DNA from: Paenalcaligenes faecalis
GTDB taxonomy: Bacteria; Pseudomonadota; Gammaproteobacteria; Burkholderiales; Burkholderiaceae_B
Direction of reading: 5' to 3'
Assembly (NCBI RefSeq): GCF_027557445.1
Contig: NZ_CP106841.1
Location: 2,156,001-2,220,000, forward strand
DNA: 64,000 nucleotides
Positions 1 through 9,593 of this stretch are shown one piece after another (positions within the stretch are counted from its first letter, which is position 1; the number at the start of each line of letters is the position of its first letter). The notes beneath the pieces are model-generated. The model was not told where the DNA came from, searched no databases, and saw only the letters and a list, made by a program, of their open reading frames with translations. Position numbers and translations under genes: made by a program.

Positions 1-2213
1 TACGTTCGATTTAAGCGAGATAGAGTTTGAACACATTCCACGCCGCCTAGCTTTTTGTCTACATACATAGCGCATAGCTTAGGTTGGTCAAAGCCAGTCT
101 GGAATTTATTGGCTGCAATCATGACTTGGTAGTCATCACTATCAAAGGCTTTACGCATTTCACGCCCTTTAAGCCCCGGGTTCATATTGCTTTCAGTGAA
201 TTTCTGGTTGAGTAGATGTGAGCTATCGTTGTCGCCTTCACTAAACGCCACCTCGCCTGAAAACGCTATCATGGATGCAATATGGCTGTACTTCTTTTCA
301 GTAATGTACTTATCAAAGGCGAGCTTATAGCGAACGGCTTCTTTACGAGAACTGGTCACAACCATGGCTTTGGCTTGCCTATTGAGTAGATGCGCTACGT
401 TTTTATTGAAATGCTCAATAATGACTACCACTTTTTGAGAGATGTTGTGCTCATGTAATCTGACCCATTGGTTAAGCTTAACTTTTGCTTTACGTGCATC
501 CACGTGTTGGTCATTCTCCAGCTTTTCTTTGAATTTGTAGACTGTGTTGTAGTTAGTGTAGTTTTTTAAGACATCTAAAATAAACCCTTCCTCAATAGCT
601 TGGCGCATGGAGTACACATGATAGGCTTCTGGCTTATTTGTCTTAGAAGGTAAGAGTTCAGGATTAGGTAGTCGCCCAAAAAGCTCTATGGTTTTCGCTT
701 TAGGGGTAGCCGTAAAGGCGTAGTAACTCAGATTACTCTTAACCCCACCCTCCTCAACGGAGTCATTTACGGCATCTTCAGCAGTACCTATGGTGTTTAA
801 GACATTTCTGAGTTCTTTAGCGGTTGAACCTGACTGTGACGAGTGGGCCTCATCCGCAATAATGGCGTAATTTCTGGCCTGTAGCACTTTACTTTTTTCA
901 ATTGCGGCAAGAACAAAAGGGAAAGTCTGAATCGTGACAATGATAATAGGTTGTGACTTTTCAAGCGCTTCCGCTAATTTCTCTGACTTAGAACCCGTTC
1001 CTACTTTGTCATTAATTCTTCCAACCACACCTTCGGCATGCTCGAATTGGTAAATAGTATCTTGTAGCTGGGAGTCGAGTACGGTTCTATCTGTGACTAC
1101 AATAATGGAATCAAACTGTCGTTTGCCTTCATCGTCTCGCAAGGTGGAAAGCTGGTGAGCAGTCCAAGCAATCGAGTTTGATTTACCAGAGCCTGCGCTG
1201 TGTTGAATTAGGTACTTATGTCCAGCCCCTTCATCCTTAGCCGCTTGGATGAGGTTAGTGACTACCTCCCACTGATGATAACGAGGGAAAATAAGAACTT
1301 CTTTTTTGCTTTCAAGGCCTTCGTAAGTTTGAACATCTTCTATATGCAAGTGAATAAATCGGCCCAAAATGTTCAAAAAGCTATCTGGGAGCAGAACTTG
1401 ATTCCAAAGGTAGCTCGTAGCATATTGATTTACATCTTCAGGAACATCATTACCCGCACCGCCTTCGCTAGTTCCTCTGTTAAATGGAAGAAAATACGTA
1501 TCATCCCCTTTTAACTGTGTGGTCATGTAGACTTCGAACTGACTTACTGCAAAATGCACCAACGCTCCACGCTTAAAGCTGAGTAAGGGTTCGGCTTTCT
1601 TCGTAGCCGGGTCGTTAGGAAGGCGTGTTTTTCGATATTGGGTAATGGCTCGCTCTACAGCCTGCTTAAATTCTGATTTAAGTTCTAGAGTAGCCACAGG
1701 GATACCGTTTACAAATAGAACTAAATCAATTCGCCAGTTCTTTGCCTTTGGGCTGCTAGGGTCTAGTGTTTCAGATGTTGTGGCATGAGGACTGTAAACA
1801 AGTTCTGGTACGATACGCAGGATGTTTTTTTGGTAATTAGCTAAAACCTCCGGGTTCAGGCTGTGTTCGGGCATAAATTGGCAGAGGGAAAACCGAGTGT
1901 TTCTGCTGCGTACACCATGCCGTAATACGCCTAAGGTTCCGTAGGTTCTAGACTGTTGGTCTGTAGCATTTATGTTCGCTTTTTTAAGTTGGGAGACGAC
2001 GACATCGCGGAAGTGGCGGTCGGTGTCGTTTGGATAAAGTCGAGTGAATTTTTCCCATTCTTTTGGCTGTGTGTTTTGGACGAAATTCAGCACATCCTCT
2101 TCATACAACGCCGTTTCCCGGTTATACCCCGCTGGCGTTCCTAGCTGCCAGCCGTTTGCTACCATCTGGTTGATGATATTTTGCTGAAAAACCCTCTCAC
2201 TAGCTTGCCCCAT
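1..2213 (-). CDS. hsdR: Type I restriction enzyme HsdR, R subunit (3' end beyond window)
   Basis: Motor and nuclease subunit of a type I restriction-modification complex: it translocates DNA using ATP and cleaves DNA that lacks the HsdM methyl mark. My reading of the minus strand from the ATG at 2213 stays open to base 1 (about 737 codons). The start MGQASERVFQQNIINQM is typical of the family. A PD-(D/E)XK nuclease core is visible around residues 160-180 (IDLVLFVNG then TLELKS). The SF2 helicase part has Walker A SAGSGKS near residue 340, IIADEAHSSQSG near 450, and FTATPKAKT. It follows hsdS by 79 bases that contain a hairpin. The C-terminal end, including the HsdM-binding region, is missing from the window. 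Family assignment is secure. Confidence 0.95.
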   Translation of the reverse strand, partial: MGQASERVFQQNIINQMVANGWQLGTPAGYNRETALYEEDVLNFVQNTQPKEWEKFTRLYPNDTDRHFRDVVVSQLKKANINATDQQSRTYGTLGVLRHGVRSRNTRFSLCQFMPEHSLNPEVLANYQKNILRIVPELVYSPHATTSETLDPSSPKAKNWRIDLVLFVNGIPVATLELKSEFKQAVERAITQYRKTRLPNDPATKKAEPLLSFKRGALVHFAVSQFEVYMTTQLKGDDTYFLPFNRGTSEGGAGNDVPEDVNQYATSYLWNQVLLPDSFLNILGRFIHLHIEDVQTYEGLESKKEVLIFPRYHQWEVVTNLIQAAKDEGAGHKYLIQHSAGSGKSNSIAWTAHQLSTLRDDEGKRQFDSIIVVTDRTVLDSQLQDTIYQFEHAEGVVGRINDKVGTGSKSEKLAEALEKSQPIIIVTIQTFPFVLAAIEKSKVLQARNYAIIADEAHSSQSGSTAKELRNVLNTIGTAEDAVNDSVEEGGVKSNLSYYAFTATPKAKTIELFGRLPNPELLPSKTNKPEAYHVYSMRQAIEEGFILDVLKNYTNYNTVYKFKEKLENDQHVDARKAKVKLNQWVRLHEHNISQKVVVIIEHFNKNVAHLLNRQAKAMVVTSSRKEAVRYKLAFDKYITEKKYSHIASMIAFSGEVAFSEGDNDSSHLLNQKFTESNMNPGLKGREMRKAFDSDDYQVMIAANKFQTGFDQPKLCAMYVDKKLGGVECVQTLSRLNRT

Positions 2214-2241
2214 ACCCCTACAACTCCCTTTTGATTTAACC

Positions 2242-2266
2242 AATAAGACCTGAGTTAGGTCTTATT
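2242..2266 (-). promoter_or_regulatory. Perfect hairpin between hsdS and hsdR
   Basis: Inverted repeat with 10-base arms AATAAGACCT and AGGTCTTATT around a 5-base loop, in the gap between the hsdS stop and the hsdR start. No T-run follows on the transcribed strand, so it is not a standard intrinsic terminator. It could be an mRNA processing or stability element or a weak attenuator lowering HsdR relative to the modification subunits. The function is inference; the repeat itself is directly visible. Confidence 0.6.
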
Positions 2267-2292: not shown

Positions 2293-3615
2293 CTACTGTA
2301 ATTCAATATCACGTACGTCAATTTTCCCCGTAACCGCCGCCGAAATTAACGCCGTACGGCGTTCTTTGAGTAGGGAAATCATATCCTGACTATTTTTTTC
2401 CAATTTATCTAATTTTCGAACTCTGTCTTCTAAATAATTATGAATTAACAGCTGCTCATCATAATCAGGTATTACCACTCTAAAGCTCAACATACTCTCC
2501 AAACTAAGGCTGGCTTGATTTGCTGTACCATGGGCATTTAAATTTAAATGCTCTCTATACATAGAACTTTGTATCAACCAAAACAGATAGTTATTATTTA
2601 AATTTTCTTCAGGAGCGAAAATAACAGTATTTTGATTTAACAGACTGCCATTTAAATCAAGAGGAAGCATTCCAACTTGACCTACTGCACTGTTTTTCAC
2701 ATCAGGGGTACTGCCAACTGTACTTAAAACAATATCGCCCGTTTTTAACATTACGTTTTTATATTCATTTAAAAAAGCAACTGGAAGATAAACTCCTGAA
2801 TATTGAATAGTTTTATTTTTTATATCACTCGCTCTAACAACCTTCACACCCTCAGACACAAAATCTGCGGACTTAAAGGCAACTCCTTTTGTGGTTGAGA
2901 TTTTATGCTTAAAAGAAGTTGTTAACCAATGCTCCGGCACCTCCCCTAACCACTCAACCCCCGAATCCTTCATCCCCACCGCCCCATCCAGCCCCTTAGT
3001 CACCGCATGACTAATCACCGCCTGCCTCTTCTCCTGCAACAACTCAATAAGCCTTTCTTGCTTACTAATTAACGTGTCGATTTTGGCGGTTTCGTGGTCG
3101 AGAAATTTGGCAATTTGGACTTGCTCTTTAATTTCCGGAATAGGTAAATATATCGACCTCAGCTCTTCACCATCTACATGAGGTATACCCATACCTATAG
3201 CATATCGTCTCATTTGCTCTTCAAAGGAGCTACATAGATACCAATAGAAGTTAGAGTCAATGCGGTTGTTTTTTAAATTAGCAGCGGCCATTGTTGAAGA
3301 AAGAACCCCTTTCTTACCTTTAACGAACTCCCCTGAGTTAGAGCCATCCCAAATAATTAAAGGCTGCCCCTCTTCAACCAAGTAAAGTCCCGGTTTTAAC
3401 GGTGCGTACATTGCTTGAGCTCTACCTCTTAAAAAATCCATAGATAAATATGGGTAGAGGTTTTCTGCCGTTTCATCAAACAATTCTGCGGGATTTCTTC
3501 CCTTCGTATAATAAGCACAATACTTATTTTTTATAATAGGCCATTGACTAGGTATCTCTCCAATCCACTCAACCCCCGACTCCCTATACTCCAGATACGC
3601 TTTATATTTCCCCAT
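2293..3615 (-). CDS. hsdS: Type I restriction-modification specificity subunit HsdS
   Basis: DNA-sequence recognition subunit that directs both methylation and restriction. At 440 aa it has the classic two-repeat plan. Each target-recognition domain opens with a family signature (SGVEWIGEIPSQWP near residue 13, SGVEWLGEVPEHW near 218). Each ends in a conserved dimerising helix (LLQEKRQAVISHAVTKG near 193-207 and LLKERRTALISAAVTGKID near the end). The start codon overlaps the hsdM stop by one base (TAATG), so translation is probably coupled. The variable TRDs are more AT-rich than the conserved helices, as is usual for reassorting hsdS alleles. The recognition sequence cannot be read from this. 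Confidence 0.95.
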   Translation of the reverse strand: MGKYKAYLEYRESGVEWIGEIPSQWPIIKNKYCAYYTKGRNPAELFDETAENLYPYLSMDFLRGRAQAMYAPLKPGLYLVEEGQPLIIWDGSNSGEFVKGKKGVLSSTMAAANLKNNRIDSNFYWYLCSSFEEQMRRYAIGMGIPHVDGEELRSIYLPIPEIKEQVQIAKFLDHETAKIDTLISKQERLIELLQEKRQAVISHAVTKGLDGAVGMKDSGVEWLGEVPEHWLTTSFKHKISTTKGVAFKSADFVSEGVKVVRASDIKNKTIQYSGVYLPVAFLNEYKNVMLKTGDIVLSTVGSTPDVKNSAVGQVGMLPLDLNGSLLNQNTVIFAPEENLNNNYLFWLIQSSMYREHLNLNAHGTANQASLSLESMLSFRVVIPDYDEQLLIHNYLEDRVRKLDKLEKNSQDMISLLKERRTALISAAVTGKIDVRDIELQ

Positions 3616-5879
3616 TACGAATGCACCTCCTGCAGCAACTCCATAATCTCCTTACTCACCGCATCCAACTCCGCATCAATCTCAGCCAAGTCTCTAGGCG
3701 GCTCGTAGACGTAGAAGTGACGATTAAAAGGAATCTCATAGCCGACAATACCGACATCCTCATCGGCTTCATCAATCCTATCGCCATTAATCCAGGCATC
3801 CGGCACATGAGGCAATACCTCTTTAGTCACGTACTCTTCAACTAGTGTGTTGGTATCTAGCTCCGGGTTAAGGGCTATATTCTCGAAATCGCGTAAATCT
3901 CCATCTGCCTCAAACTCAACGACTTTACCGTTATAACTAAAGAGTCCGTACATAGGATTCGCATCAGCCTTAACAACCTTCTTAATAACCGGCTCCGCCT
4001 CTGGGTTCTTCCAGGTGACAGCGTCTAGGAACTGGCGTCTTTGTCGAGCTGTCCATTTAATTTCTGCATCTTTTAGGGCTTTTTTGAGCTTATTGTCAAA
4101 GACGTTGAAATCATTGTAGAGCTCATCGCCTAAAGCAGATTTAAGTATTTGTGCTTCACGTAATAGCTGTCTTTGCTCTGTCCATAGCTTTGGCTGAAGT
4201 AGAGTCTTGATATCTTTTTCTTTAAGCTCAGGGTAGTCCGCCTTAATAAGAGCGCGAATCTCAACTTCGTTTGTTTTCAAGTTTTCACCTTCGCCGTCTA
4301 ACCATGCATCACTATATTTTTCGTATAAAGCTGGCATGATGGCATTAAAGGGTCTAGGAGCGAAACGTAGGTTGGCGATGGCTTTATCAGTAAGCCGGGC
4401 AGATAAACGTAATGGGCGCTCAATTGTTACACGACGGTAGCCGAACTCATGGGTACCAAAAGCCTTGCTCACAACAGGAGGCTTCTTATCTCTCTCTATC
4501 GATTGCATATCGCCATAGCTTTTTACGATGGCGTTGATATCTTCATCGCTCAAATAGTTACGCTTGGAGCCAAGAGACTTACGCATTTTTGAGCCCAAGC
4601 CGGTTGCATCGATGAGCTGCACCTGACCTTTGCGCTCGTCTGTTTTCTTATTCGATAAAATCCAAACGTAAGTAGCAATGCCGGTGTTATAAAACATATC
4701 TGTTGGCAAAGCGACAATGGCTTCAAGCAGGTCTGCTTCCAAGATATAGCGGCGGATTTCACTTTCGCCACTGCCTGCACCACCTGTAAACAAGGGCGAG
4801 CCGTTGAGAATGATGCCAATGCGGCTGCCATTTTCGTCTCTAGGTTTCATCTTCTTAATCAGATGCAGCAAAAAGAGCAGGGAGCCATCTGAGACACGAG
4901 GTAATCCAGGGCCAAAGCGTCCTTCGTACCCTTTTTCTAGATGCTCTGCTTTAATCTCGTCCTCGATACGTTTCCAATCCACCCCAAACGGTGGGTTTGA
5001 GAGCATGTAATCAAACGTGTTGGACACTAGCTGGTCATTTGAGAGAGTATTGCCTAATTTAATTAAGCTAACGTCCTGACCTTTAATGAGCATATCAGCC
5101 TTACAAATAGCATAGGATTCGGCGTTAAGCTCTTGCCCGTAGGTTCGCATAACAGCTTCGGGGTTTAGCTTAAGCAGGTGCTCCATGCCCTCACTAAGTA
5201 GGCCACCTGTTCCAGCGGTTGGGTCATACGCGGTTCTAATCACCCCTTCTTTAGTTAGAGCCTCGTCATCGTCTGCAAACACCAGGTCGGTCACAAGTCT
5301 AACAATGTCTCGTGGTGTAAAGTGCTCCCCAGCAGTGTCGTTAGCACTTTCAGCAAAGCGACGAATTAGCTCTTCAAAAACTAGTCCCATGTCGTGGTTG
5401 GAAATAGTCTTTGGGCTTAGGTCACTGTTGGAGAATATCTCTACTACCTTATATAGTAGGTTTGTGTCATCAAGTAAGCCAATAAACTCTTCAAATTTGA
5501 AGTGGTCAAAAATCTCTCGAGCATCTTTTGAGAAGCTCTGAACATAATGACTTAAATTTTCTTTAATATCAGATTGCCCCATCTTGCTTAAATCCATGGG
5601 GGAAGTATTGAAAAAGGCTAAACCTGGGTCATCCTCACCTACTTTAGTGGCTCGCAACAACATCATTGCTTGAGCCTCTTCTGGTAAGTTCATCTGCTTA
5701 ATTTTGGCATGCTCTGCTAAAACGGCTTCTTTTGTATCCGCTAGCACACACTCTAAACGACGCAGTAGCGTAAATGGCAAAATGATTCGTCCATATTGAG
5801 ACTGCCTAAAATCCCCTCGAAGTAAATCAGCGACGGACCAAATGAAGGCTGCGACCTTGGAAAAATTACTGTTATTCAA
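3615..5879 (-). CDS. hsdM: Type I DNA adenine methyltransferase HsdM
   Basis: Modification subunit that transfers methyl groups from SAM to adenine N6 at the HsdS-chosen site. The longest frame opens with a GTG at 5891 (758 aa). I prefer the TTG at 5879 because GAG sits seven bases upstream and the product then begins [16 protein letters not shown], as relatives do (754 aa). In longest-frame numbering, the N-terminal helical domain is followed by SAM motif I DPTAGTGG at about 223-230 and catalytic motif IV SNPPFG at about 298-303. Both are intact, unlike the adjacent 5948-7723 protein. The long C-terminal region marks the larger (about 750 aa) HsdM class. It sits in an operon with hsdS and hsdR. 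Confidence 0.93.
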
Positions 5880-5947
5880 TTTACATCTCACAAATAAAAA
5901 ACGGATGGTGACTTTTTTCGTTGTTGCCTTGTAATGACGGCATCAAG

Positions 5948-7723
5948 TCAACTTAGCAATGGCTTCTCTATGGCTTTTATTTCCTCTTCTAACTCAGATA
6001 TCCTTTTTTCCAAATCACATAAATTTCGATATTTGCTAACAGTAGCTAGCTGCTCGCTTTCTGTTGGTAGCGGAACCTTAAAGGACTCTAATAACGCACG
6101 GTTATTTAGATGCTTCATATTAGCCCCTGTTTCCAAACTTTTGAATTGGGCAACAGCGGATTGAGTACGCAAATAGACCAACAGGTATTCTGGCGTTATT
6201 TTCCTCGCTATTTCACTGTCTTTTAGTCGAAGTGCCACGCAGCTTTGCGATACAACAGTACTTTCACTGGGCAAACACCCGACGATAGCGCTTTCTCCTA
6301 TTGTCCCCTTCACCGAAAGCACCACATCTCCTTCTTCTAAGAAAGCAATATCTCTAGCCCTTAGATGGATTTTCCTAGTTAATGGTCCATTTACGGGACT
6401 CCAGCTCCCCAGGTGTGGTATTCCAAATTCTAGCGCACTCTTATCTTCCTCATTTTTACTTAAAGCTGATGGTCTGATTAATGAGCAGATTTGGCTGAGG
6501 GGTATCGCATTTGGCCCAATATCGGCCGGAATGTTTACATAACGGTTTGGGTTTAGCAGATACCCTTCCTCACGTACCTCTTGAATGTTTACGGTACGAG
6601 ATACCCCCTCTTTTTCTTCTCTGCCGAGAATAAGGTTTTTGTTTTCTTCCAGTGCCTTTGCGGCGGTTTCATTAAAGCGCAGTGGGATATCACTCAAATC
6701 TACCATGTGGATATCTTGGCCCTTTTCCTGGTTGAAAACCATATCCATAATCGCTATAGAGAGTGGAGTATGGCTGTAAACTCTTGGAGGCGTTAGGATA
6801 ATAGAGCTTAGCTGTTGGCCATGCTTCTCATCATCAATAATATATTCACGTAAAAGCCTTTCTTGGCCAACTGTATAAAGTGTGTTTTGACTAACACAAA
6901 ATATAGCCTGCTTAGTTATGCGTGCTGATAGCTCATGAATTAGCCAAGGTTCAAATCGAGCATAGTTTTGTTCCTTGCAGCTTTCGTTTGAACTCCACAG
7001 CTCAATGGTTTTTCTATTAAACCCACCTGAGCTTAACCCTAGAGGGGAGGTAGTTATCACATGAGTAGATTTAAGTTGATGTACTTCTTGGCTAGATAAG
7101 GCTGTTGAACTAATTTTTTTATGGGAGGGTTGTCCGTACACTATGATGAGCAGAAGAGGGAGAAAGTTTCTAGGTAGGTTTAAAATTTGTGTGTGATTAA
7201 CTTTCCATCCGCGACGAACTGCCTGTAAGGCTTGCATTCCAATAACATCAAAGGGTAGCCAAAGTACGTCCTTTTCTTCAGGCTTTTCTAACATATCCAA
7301 TAAAAGCTCAAATGTCTCAAGAGCTAATACACCACCACCATACGATGCTTGGCTATTTTGTATAAAAAACTGTTGCAGGATTTGCAGTAGGTCGCCAGAA
7401 AAAGCACCTTCGGTATCACATAATCTTTCAACGATAGTAATCGCTTTGGATAAAAGTGCTTTATCTTCATTAATGACCTTAGTGGAGAAATAGGACGAGT
7501 TCTCCAGGGGTATCCCTGCGGCTCGTATTTTTTCCCAAGCGCCATCACTCATTAACTCCCATAAGTCTTTTAGGTCTGGGATATTACTTTCAGACTGCAT
7601 ACGGCCTATAGCTAACCAAGTCAGCGCAAAAGATAAGAGTTCATCTTCCCGAGCATAAGCACGACCTAGTTCTAAAAGACTTTGCAGTGTTTTGGATAAT
7701 ACTTGTGTAGAGTTAGTTTTCAC
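5948..7723 (-). CDS. Degenerate N6-adenine methyltransferase fused to an HsdS-like target-recognition domain
   Basis: A 591-aa protein in the type I operon, 68 bases upstream of the proposed hsdM start and 21 bases after the DUF4258 gene. The start is GTG with AAGGAA seven bases upstream. Residues 1-150 look helical. About 154-345 keeps an adenine-methyltransferase outline but not its catalysis: the motif I region reads LPFDVIGMQALQAVRRG where a G-rich loop is expected, and motif IV reads ITTSPLG (224-229) where (N/S)PP(F/Y) is needed. VREEGYLLNPNRYV (383-396) matches the end of HsdM-type domains. About 400-570 resembles one HsdS TRD (DVVLSVKGTIGESAI, TGANMKHLNNRALLESFKVPLP), followed by a short coiled coil. 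It is probably a non-catalytic DNA-binding or accessory subunit. The fold is inferred by eye. Confidence 0.65.
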   Translation of the reverse strand: MKTNSTQVLSKTLQSLLELGRAYAREDELLSFALTWLAIGRMQSESNIPDLKDLWELMSDGAWEKIRAAGIPLENSSYFSTKVINEDKALLSKAITIVERLCDTEGAFSGDLLQILQQFFIQNSQASYGGGVLALETFELLLDMLEKPEEKDVLWLPFDVIGMQALQAVRRGWKVNHTQILNLPRNFLPLLLIIVYGQPSHKKISSTALSSQEVHQLKSTHVITTSPLGLSSGGFNRKTIELWSSNESCKEQNYARFEPWLIHELSARITKQAIFCVSQNTLYTVGQERLLREYIIDDEKHGQQLSSIILTPPRVYSHTPLSIAIMDMVFNQEKGQDIHMVDLSDIPLRFNETAAKALEENKNLILGREEKEGVSRTVNIQEVREEGYLLNPNRYVNIPADIGPNAIPLSQICSLIRPSALSKNEEDKSALEFGIPHLGSWSPVNGPLTRKIHLRARDIAFLEEGDVVLSVKGTIGESAIVGCLPSESTVVSQSCVALRLKDSEIARKITPEYLLVYLRTQSAVAQFKSLETGANMKHLNNRALLESFKVPLPTESEQLATVSKYRNLCDLEKRISELEEEIKAIEKPLLS

Positions 7724-7744: not shown

Positions 7745-8023
7745 TTAATGACGGTGTGAAACTGTTAATACAGCGTCGTTTTCTACGTTAACAACTGCAT
7801 AGACACCTTGTATCTTGTCTAGCAAAGGGACGGGGCCCAGTAGTTTCTCAAGCTTTTTAATTGAGCGTTTATTCATAAAGTATCGGATTCCGCCTCTTCC
7901 GTCATACTCTTTTTGCCCATATCCGAGGACTAGGGGTAGGTAGTCCTGAGTAATACCCCTTTGCTGCATACGCGTTTTGGCGTGGTTGGATACTTTATAT
8001 TGCACTGGTCTTGAGTAGCTCAT
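7745..8023 (-). CDS. DUF4258-type small protein
   Basis: Small basic protein of 92 aa, first gene of the restriction-modification operon. The start chosen is the ATG at 8023, because a strong GGAGG lies five bases upstream; a longer frame opens at 8044. It shows the DUF4258 pattern: an N-terminal HAKTRMQQRGI motif and a C-terminal strand VVNVENDAVLTVSHRH. DUF4258 is a compact RelE/BrnT-like fold with poorly defined function; some relatives are annotated as toxins, but no antitoxin partner is evident here. It precedes the methyltransferase-like gene by 21 bases, suggesting cotranscription. The divergent neighbour is the 8179 gene. Confidence 0.6.
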   Translation of the reverse strand: MSYSRPVQYKVSNHAKTRMQQRGITQDYLPLVLGYGQKEYDGRGGIRYFMNKRSIKKLEKLLGPVPLLDKIQGVYAVVNVENDAVLTVSHRH

Positions 8024-8062
8024 AGCCGCCTCCGTAATCATCATGATTTAAATAGTATCATT

Positions 8063-8077
8063 CTACTTTTTAAAAGT
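8063..8077. promoter_or_regulatory. Palindrome in the divergent promoter region of the RM operon
   Basis: TACTTTT-T-AAAAGTA, a perfect 7-base inverted repeat about 40 bases before the DUF4258 start and about 100 before the 8179 gene. Its position suits an operator controlling the defence operon; the binding protein is unknown. Confidence 0.4.
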
Positions 8078-8178
8078 AAATCCTACTATCAATCTTTGTT
8101 GTTTTTGTTAACGGGCGTTATATGTAATAATTAGTTTCAAGAAAAATAAGCTACTTAACCATATATAGGAAATAAACC

Positions 8179-8442: not shown

Positions 8443-8495
8443 CTAACCCCGACACTTTTTATGGTAAAAAGATGAACAACCATAAGGGGTTAAAC

Positions 8496-8792
8496 ATGAG
8501 CAAAGGCTACCGTTATTCAGATGAGTTTAAGCAAGAAGCTGTCAACCAAGTGACCATCCATGGTTATGCTGTTGTAGACGTTGCTACGCGCTTAGGCATC
8601 AGTGATAAGACGCTGTACAACTGGATTAAGATCTTTTCCAAACCGGTTAAAAAACGACTGGAAGATAATGATTTACAAACAGAAATCGCCCGTTTAAAGC
8701 GCGAACTGAAGCGTGTTGAGCAAGAGCGCAACATCTTAAAGGAAGCCGCCGTGTTCTTTGCCAGCGAGTCAAAGAACGGTACGCGTTCATAA
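8496..8792 (+). CDS. IS3-family transposase OrfA
   Basis: 98-aa DNA-binding half of the transposase. A helix-turn-helix (KQEAVNQVTIHGYAVVDVA then GISDKTLYNWIK) is followed by a leucine-zipper-like coil (DLQTEIARLKRELKRVEQER). The ATG at 8496 is preferred over 8472 because AAGGGG lies just upstream. The end overlaps the orfB frame, where a -1 ribosomal frameshift would normally create the OrfAB transposase. Confidence 0.85.
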   Translation: MSKGYRYSDEFKQEAVNQVTIHGYAVVDVATRLGISDKTLYNWIKIFSKPVKKRLEDNDLQTEIARLKRELKRVEQERNILKEAAVFFASESKNGTRS

Positions 8793-9593
8793 AATCTCGT
8801 CGCCACCGTTATCCTGTACGCTTGCTTTGCAAAGTGATGCGTGTTCATCACAGCAGCTATTACGCTTGGGTTAAAGCGCCAGAGAGCAAGCGGTGGACAC
8901 TATGGCTATCGCAACATCCATCTTGATCTTGCTGAGGCTGGTATCAAATGTGGGCGCGATCGAACACTGAGATTAATGCGATTGGCGCAAATTTGTGCGC
9001 AACGCGGCTATAAAAGACCTAAAGGTTATTATAGTGGTAAGCCTTATATCACAGCGCCCAACACGCTCGACCTTGCTTTTAATGTGTTTGCGCCGAACCA
9101 ATGGTGGGTCAGCGATATCACCTACATTCCCACCCAGGAAGGCTTCTTGTTCTTAGCGGTAGTCATGGACTTGTTCGCACGCAGCATTGTTGGCTGGTCG
9201 ATGTCTGAGCGGATGACTGACACTCTGGTTCAAGATGCTTTAATGGCTGCTTATTGGCGCCGTAAACCAGAAGGCACTGTGCGACTGCATTCGGATCAAG
9301 GCTCTCAATACAGCAGCCGTGATTTTAGGGCGTTGCTCAGTTCACTTAATATGGAAGCCAGCATGAGCCGCAGAGGCAATTGTTGGGATAATGCAGTTGC
9401 TGAAAGCTTCTTTAGCAACCTTAAAAAAGAAAAAATACGCCGCCATAAGTACAAAACACGGGAAGAAGCAAAGCGGGCTATATTTCATTACATCGAGATG
9501 TTTTACAATCCAAAACGCAGGCACACGCACAATCAGCGGGTGTCACCAATGAACTATGAAAAGCAGTATTTTATGAATCAAAAAAGTGTCTGA
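8753..9593 (+). pseudogene. IS3-family transposase OrfB, frameshifted by an internal deletion
   Basis: The DDE integrase half. The first part, in the frame of the TAC at 8780, reads VKERYAFIKSRRHRYP then LLCKVMRVHHSSYYAWVKAPE, the normal OrfB beginning. Near 8880-8895 the frame changes directly to SGGHYGYRNIHLDL, skipping about 20-25 residues found in relatives. The remainder is intact, with catalytic D in SDITYI, D in HSDQGSQY and E in AESFF. The GTG at 8841 that would open the second frame is not a natural start. Presumed inactive. Confidence 0.8.

Follow-up and report, generated by a model that had tools for sequence, protein, structure and literature searches.

A conserved family of catalytically dead M-S fusion proteins beside type I restriction genes, with a probable DUF4258-like partner

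Analysis of a 64,000-nt stretch of Paenalcaligenes faecalis DNA (contig NZ_CP106841.1, positions 2,156,001 to 2,220,000; here called the window) has centered on a 591-aa protein encoded at 5948-7723 within a type I restriction gene row. Judged from its sequence, this protein belongs to a conserved family of single-chain, catalytically dead proteins that join a modification (M) subunit-like body to one target recognition domain (TRD) of a specificity (S) subunit, and are here termed M-S proteins. The evidence points to a pairing of the M-S protein with a small DUF4258-like protein encoded directly upstream, and suggests an accessory module, so far undescribed, by which restriction systems are watched, regulated or armed. 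The elements of the protein, in window coordinates, are as follows.

5948-7723, minus strand: dead M-S protein, 591 aa, with an HsdM-like N-terminal region, a methyltransferase core, one HsdS-like TRD and a C-terminal helix
7238-7258, minus strand: position of S-adenosylmethionine (SAM) motif I, residues 156-162, LPFDVIG in place of DPxxGxG
7037-7054, minus strand: position of catalytic motif IV, residues 224-229, TTSPLG in place of (N/D)PP(F/Y)
6074-6511, minus strand: single TRD-like region, about residues 405-550, the best conserved part of the M-S family
5954-6061, minus strand: long C-terminal helix, residues 555-590, with block values of the predicted local distance difference test (pLDDT) of 65-90

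The open reading frame (ORF) is uninterrupted and begins with GTG preceded by AAGGAA. A 99-aa ORF (7745-8044) ends 21 nt upstream of it, and hsdM follows after 56 nt. Pfam places N6_Mtase on residues 206-397 (40.6 bits, cut-off 20.4) and Methylase_S on residues 462-577 (31 bits, cut-off 22), the latter as one stretch and not two TRDs, in agreement with the HsdM-like part and C-terminal HsdS-like TRD proposed in a first-pass annotation of this DNA; HsdM_N has no Pfam match in the M-S protein, whereas the neighboring HsdM has one. Profile-profile alignment with HsdM (hhalign, probability 99.5%, E 9e-23) sets LPFDVIG against DPTAGTG and TTSPLG against NPPFG, and because of this alignment the earlier reading of both motifs as lost is correct. 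Profiles of the family also matched solved structures, with M subunits found by the middle part (7vru_A, E 2.3e-31; 7bst_D, E 1.6e-29) and S subunits by the C-terminal part (5ybb_D, E 3e-16; 3okg_A, about 3e-16), so that at profile level the likeness to HsdM and HsdS is far beyond chance. The C-terminal helix is the only confidently modeled element of the AlphaFold2 prediction, and in the model is probably a coiled coil. No significant BLASTP similarity was found between the M-S protein and the product of the neighboring hsdM, which rules out a recent duplicate of that gene.

The loss of motifs is a property of the family. Full-length relatives were found by tblastn on plasmids of Aromatoleum, Roseovarius, Roseomonas, Sulfuricurvum, Aliivibrio, Oscillatoria, Geminocystis, Cyanobacterium Dongsha4, Annamia and Synechococcus elongatus, together with a fragment next to IS1071 on a Delftia plasmid; these ten, the window protein and one IMG/VR locus (L063) make up the 12 full-length members, with the Roseovarius and Roseomonas proteins, each split into two overlapping ORFs, joined for comparison only. 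The members span Proteobacteria, Campylobacterota and cyanobacteria, and many of their loci are on plasmids, several of them conjugative. Neither DPxxGxG nor (N/D)PP(F/Y) is recognizable in any of the 12, although the motif IV alignment is uncertain for Roseovarius and Roseomonas; intact relatives around a single decayed copy, the outcome that would have spoken against the first-pass proposal, were thus not found. In their place stands a replacement common to many members, with CP[FY]D commonest at the motif I site (consensus near VYCP[FY]DS) and FPP plus a hydrophobic residue commonest at motif IV, while all ten aligned neighboring HsdM proteins retain NPPF or NPPY at motif IV. In a tree of the methyltransferase core, made without L063 and the Delftia fragment, the eleven M-S members fall on one side of a branch with support 99/98. 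Several terminal branches are long, that of the window protein being 2.9; long-branch effects therefore cannot be excluded, and the branching order within the group and the exact place of the window protein are unsure for this reason.

The family is small in the collections searched. A search with the L063 protein returned 16 plasmid records, nearly all from the known M-S set, where ordinary HsdM proteins share thousands. The genome_contigs collection gave no relatives by single-protein patterns and only one ordinary HsdM in a pairwise-alignment scan; viral_contigs gave none with four M-S proteins and a pair alignment, and the phages collection had no match. Genomes of the organism's own family, class and phylum yielded no further clear member, although often just the three best candidates were scored and absence is unproven. 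In NCBI, some relatives already carry the name "type I restriction-modification system subunit M/S" or "N-6 DNA methylase". The first-pass annotation knew of no described system with this composition; the fusion itself is not unknown, whereas family-wide inactivation and linkage to DUF4258 were not found described in the open-licence literature searched.

7745-8044, minus strand: small DUF4258-like protein of 99 aa, encoded by the gene that opens the row (PF14076, E 2.7e-4)

This small protein is probably the partner of the M-S protein, as gene order and alignment suggest. A DUF4258-like gene lies directly upstream of the M-S gene in eight of the 12 loci (window, Aromatoleum, Roseovarius, Sulfuricurvum, Oscillatoria, Roseomonas, S. 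elongatus and L063); in seven of these the two genes overlap or are about 1-22 nt apart, and in Oscillatoria the gap is 189 nt. The window protein scores 21.6 bits against PF14076, below the 25-bit cut-off and thus a weak assignment, and can be aligned to its counterparts at other M-S loci. A scan of IMG/VR with the DUF4258 profile, blind to M-S, led to one confirmed locus, L063, in which the next genes encode a dead M-S protein with VFPPFG and then an HsdM with intact motif I. The 72,556 plasmids include about 14 M-S and 23 DUF4258 records, from which about 0.004 shared plasmids would be expected; eight (six distinct) were observed. DUF4258 is described as a BECR-fold RelE/ParE family with no known target that also occurs in DUF4258-MqsA toxin-antitoxin fusions (PMC11980606). 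As a separate observation, a Moraxella osloensis plasmid carries more DUF4258-like ORFs (L061, 7689-7937 and 7984-8175) near a viperin-family antiviral protein.

The M-S gene precedes a complete type I set, as noted at first pass, in which hsdM and hsdS are intact in the window and hsdR in the genome.

3615-5891, minus strand: hsdM, with motifs DPTAGTG and SNPPFG intact (PADLOC MTase_I, E 2.6e-276)
2293-3615, minus strand: hsdS, intact, with two Methylase_S stretches (Pfam, PADLOC)
3-2243, minus strand: hsdR, truncated at the window edge; the full gene in the genome encodes 1083 aa
8045-8178, no strand assigned: AT-rich intergenic region that separates the DUF4258-like gene from a divergent ORF of 87 aa

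The neighborhood check proposed earlier gave, besides the DUF4258 linkage, hsdM and/or hsdS in the M-S gene row at eight of the 12 loci (window, Aromatoleum, Roseovarius, Sulfuricurvum, Aliivibrio, Oscillatoria, Roseomonas and L063), with the Aliivibrio linkage crossing the plasmid origin and the Roseomonas set damaged. In Dongsha4 an hsdM is close to the M-S gene but divergent, and no hsdM or hsdS was found in the stretch read at the Geminocystis, Annamia and S. elongatus loci. On the S. elongatus plasmid (L047) the DUF4258-like gene and the dead M-S gene are followed by a gene for a Swt1-like HEPN protein; type I genes are absent from the part of this plasmid that was read, so the pair is able to occur independently of type I restriction. 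Downstream of the window set, 24 nt after hsdR and outside the window, lies a gene for a 581-aa GmrSD_N/DUF262 protein (genome contig C1, about 2153222-2154967; L067, 3223-4968), and the last gene of the Aromatoleum row likewise encodes a GmrSD protein (L003, 14201-16072); this type IV-like enzyme may therefore belong to the cassette. The stretch at 8045-8178 is likely the promoter region of the row, in which promoter-like matches were not above chance. Between hsdS and the start of hsdR, a perfect inverted repeat (CAATAAGACCT...AGGTCTTATTG, 2241-2267), with a core unique in the genome, is possibly an attenuator or terminator before hsdR. An IS3-type transposase pair (8472-9593) adjoins the row, consistent with a mobile island.

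The TRD of the M-S proteins is conserved in a manner unlike that expected of a recognition head under diversification. In the first M-S set, mean pairwise identity is 29.5% for the TRD and 22.2% for the M core, and 42 of 141 TRD columns are at least 60% conserved; all 55 TRD pairs have local alignment scores of at least 60 (mean 154), compared with means of 45 for neighboring HsdS TRDs, which were cut crudely, and 30 for shuffled controls. In the neighboring ordinary subunits the order is reversed, at 34.7% identity for HsdM and 18.8% for HsdS. Part of this contrast reflects only that the M-S TRD is unswapped, because the halves of HsdS hold different TRD types. The suggestion that the protein provides a second recognition head is nevertheless weakened, its TRD being conserved rather than diversified; of the two other roles proposed at first pass, decoy/regulator and extra defence effector, either may apply.

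A second, deeper set of the same build was found in Salimicrobium, Paenibacillus, Lactococcus cremoris, Lactobacillus amylovorus and Mycolicibacterium alvei. All five retain a motif I-like DxxxG, and at motif IV carry NFPF, HPPL, VPPF, FPPI and EPPF, respectively. Type I genes are downstream in four of the five loci, with none in the stretch read in Paenibacillus. The place occupied by DUF4258 in the window family is taken by an NYN-domain gene in M. alvei (L052, 6619-7134) and by a DUF2325 gene in Salimicrobium (L050, 7022-7345), directly upstream of the M-S gene in both; proteins with no Pfam match are upstream in Lactobacillus and Paenibacillus, and a transposase in Lactococcus. Monophyly of all 16 M-S rows, including those that keep the SAM motif, was neither shown nor rejected (approximately unbiased test, p 0.475).

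Pseudoenzymes kept by selection usually regulate or sense. Where a look-alike of a modification enzyme and a gene of a toxin superfamily occur in one row, a unit of restraint and sensing with PrrC-like logic is the simplest reading, and we tentatively propose, as a real possibility short of a probability, that the M-S protein is a non-catalytic scaffold that holds the DUF4258 protein in check or acts as its sensor, and through which that protein is coupled to the restriction system. The DUF4258 protein would be bound and rendered harmless by the M-S protein, in the role of antitoxin or sensor. The pseudo-M domain, together with the conserved TRD and the C-terminal helix, would allow the M-S protein to act as a decoy of the modification enzyme that attaches to DNA or to type I subunits. 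Loss of the row, or a block on the restriction enzyme such as a DNA-mimic anti-restriction protein could impose, would free the DUF4258 protein and stop growth. We infer in this way the toxicity of the DUF4258 protein, its neutralization by M-S, the contact with HsdM, HsdS or DNA, and the trigger. A more general form, in which the widespread but rare class of dead M-S proteins would sense for and restrain interchangeable small effectors (DUF4258-like proteins in one branch and, in deeper branches, NYN, DUF2325 or uncharacterized ones) and raise an alarm when restriction is disabled, is more doubtful.

Several observations weigh against this proposal of a restraining scaffold. At 600 aa the M-S protein is unusually large for an antitoxin. 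Four of the 12 loci have no DUF4258 gene detectable by profile, and the PF14076 matches are weak, with two of the eight small proteins above cut-off and one unmatched at E 0.1. DUF4258 genes are also found away from M-S, on Acinetobacter, Aeromonas and Moraxella plasmids and next to helix-turn-helix (HTH) genes in Thauera; close relatives of this kind adjoin HTH or other small genes, and an M-S partner is therefore not always required. Structure prediction, also proposed at first pass, gave low-confidence models: pLDDT was 38.8 for the M-S protein, from 8 alignment rows, and at 49.1 from 2 rows the model of the window DUF4258-like protein is too poor to use.

Other explanations must be set beside the scaffold. 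One is that the M-S protein represses its own row by binding DNA: with one TRD and as a dimer through the C-terminal helix, it would sit on a fixed site and delay expression of the restriction genes when the plasmid or island enters a new cell, as a type I counterpart of type II C proteins. A TRD that is conserved and not diversified, the many plasmid loci, several of them conjugative, and the position of the gene near the start of the row all fit this, as does the finding that an inactive methyltransferase mutant of EcoRII still represses (PMC12707154). However, no inverted repeat or evident operator was found upstream of the row, the DUF4258 protein is left unexplained and a 600-aa M-like body exceeds the needs of a repressor; this role seems rather unlikely. 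It is slightly less likely again that the protein acts as an alternative, non-catalytic type I partner, replacing one HsdM or half of HsdS and thereby changing specificity or blocking cleavage. Its HsdM and HsdS folds, assigned by homology, and the presence of hsdM and/or hsdS in most of the rows would suit such a part, and a type I enzyme can have two unlike M subunits, as PacII M1M2S does (PMC9613975); yet both PacII M subunits retain catalytic motifs (NPPF and NPPY), the stretch read around the S. elongatus pair contains no type I genes, and the absence of BLASTP similarity to the neighboring HsdM indicates that the protein is not a recent, tailored duplicate.

Simple decay of a gene with no function is very improbable. 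A long branch and one of the most divergent motif IV sequences in the family speak for decay of the window copy, but it retains an intact ORF of family-typical length, a ribosome-binding site and its position in the row, and the same losses with a common replacement motif recur in other phyla; decay of a single copy is rejected because the whole family is without both motifs. Should the restraining scaffold proposed above be correct, type I restriction would in these rows have a built-in guard comparable to PrrC but differently made, and "N-6 DNA methylase" or "subunit M/S" annotations in such rows would probably denote non-methylating proteins, which matters for methylome prediction.

Compared with known proteins, the M-S protein shares with HsdM (PF02384) a methyltransferase core over about 280 residues, with EcoR124I M among the solved M subunits matched by profile, and differs in its lack of motif I, (N/D)PP(F/Y) and a Pfam HsdM_N match and in its C-terminally fused TRD. 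With HsdS (PF01420) it has in common one Methylase_S/TRD region and the helix that follows; unlike HsdS, in which conserved helices separate two variable TRDs, it has a single TRD, conserved between phyla and carried on a pseudo-M body. A functional single-chain M-S methyltransferase would need the catalytic motifs, intact in none of the 12 members. The best PADLOC match for the C-terminal third is MAD5 of MADS, but membership is ruled out (37.8 bits, NCBIfam cut-off 400), and the other proteins of the row that were scanned gave no MADS-level match.

At the level of the system, PacII likewise has two M-like proteins, but both are catalytic and its S subunit is separate (PMC9613975). DUF4258 toxin-antitoxin modules (PF14076) share a small DUF4258-like protein in a tight two-gene unit; here the partner is a 600-aa dead methyltransferase and not MqsA or another small DNA-binding antitoxin, and DUF4258 comes first in the M-S rows, in contrast to the antitoxin-first order given in PMC11980606. 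No account of DUF4258 with a methylase-like partner, or of inactive HsdM paralogues, was found among the open-licence papers searched, and no PrrC anticodon nuclease domain among the row proteins scanned. The nearest parallel in principle is EcoprrI, where a phage peptide that inhibits the type I enzyme activates the linked nuclease PrrC, establishing that a type I system can restrain a host-stopping RNase (PMC12707154). Both arrangements place accessory genes in a type I operon, in this case a DUF4258-like gene and an M-S gene before hsdMSR; they differ in that the effector candidate here is the DUF4258-like protein and its partner a dead M-S protein.
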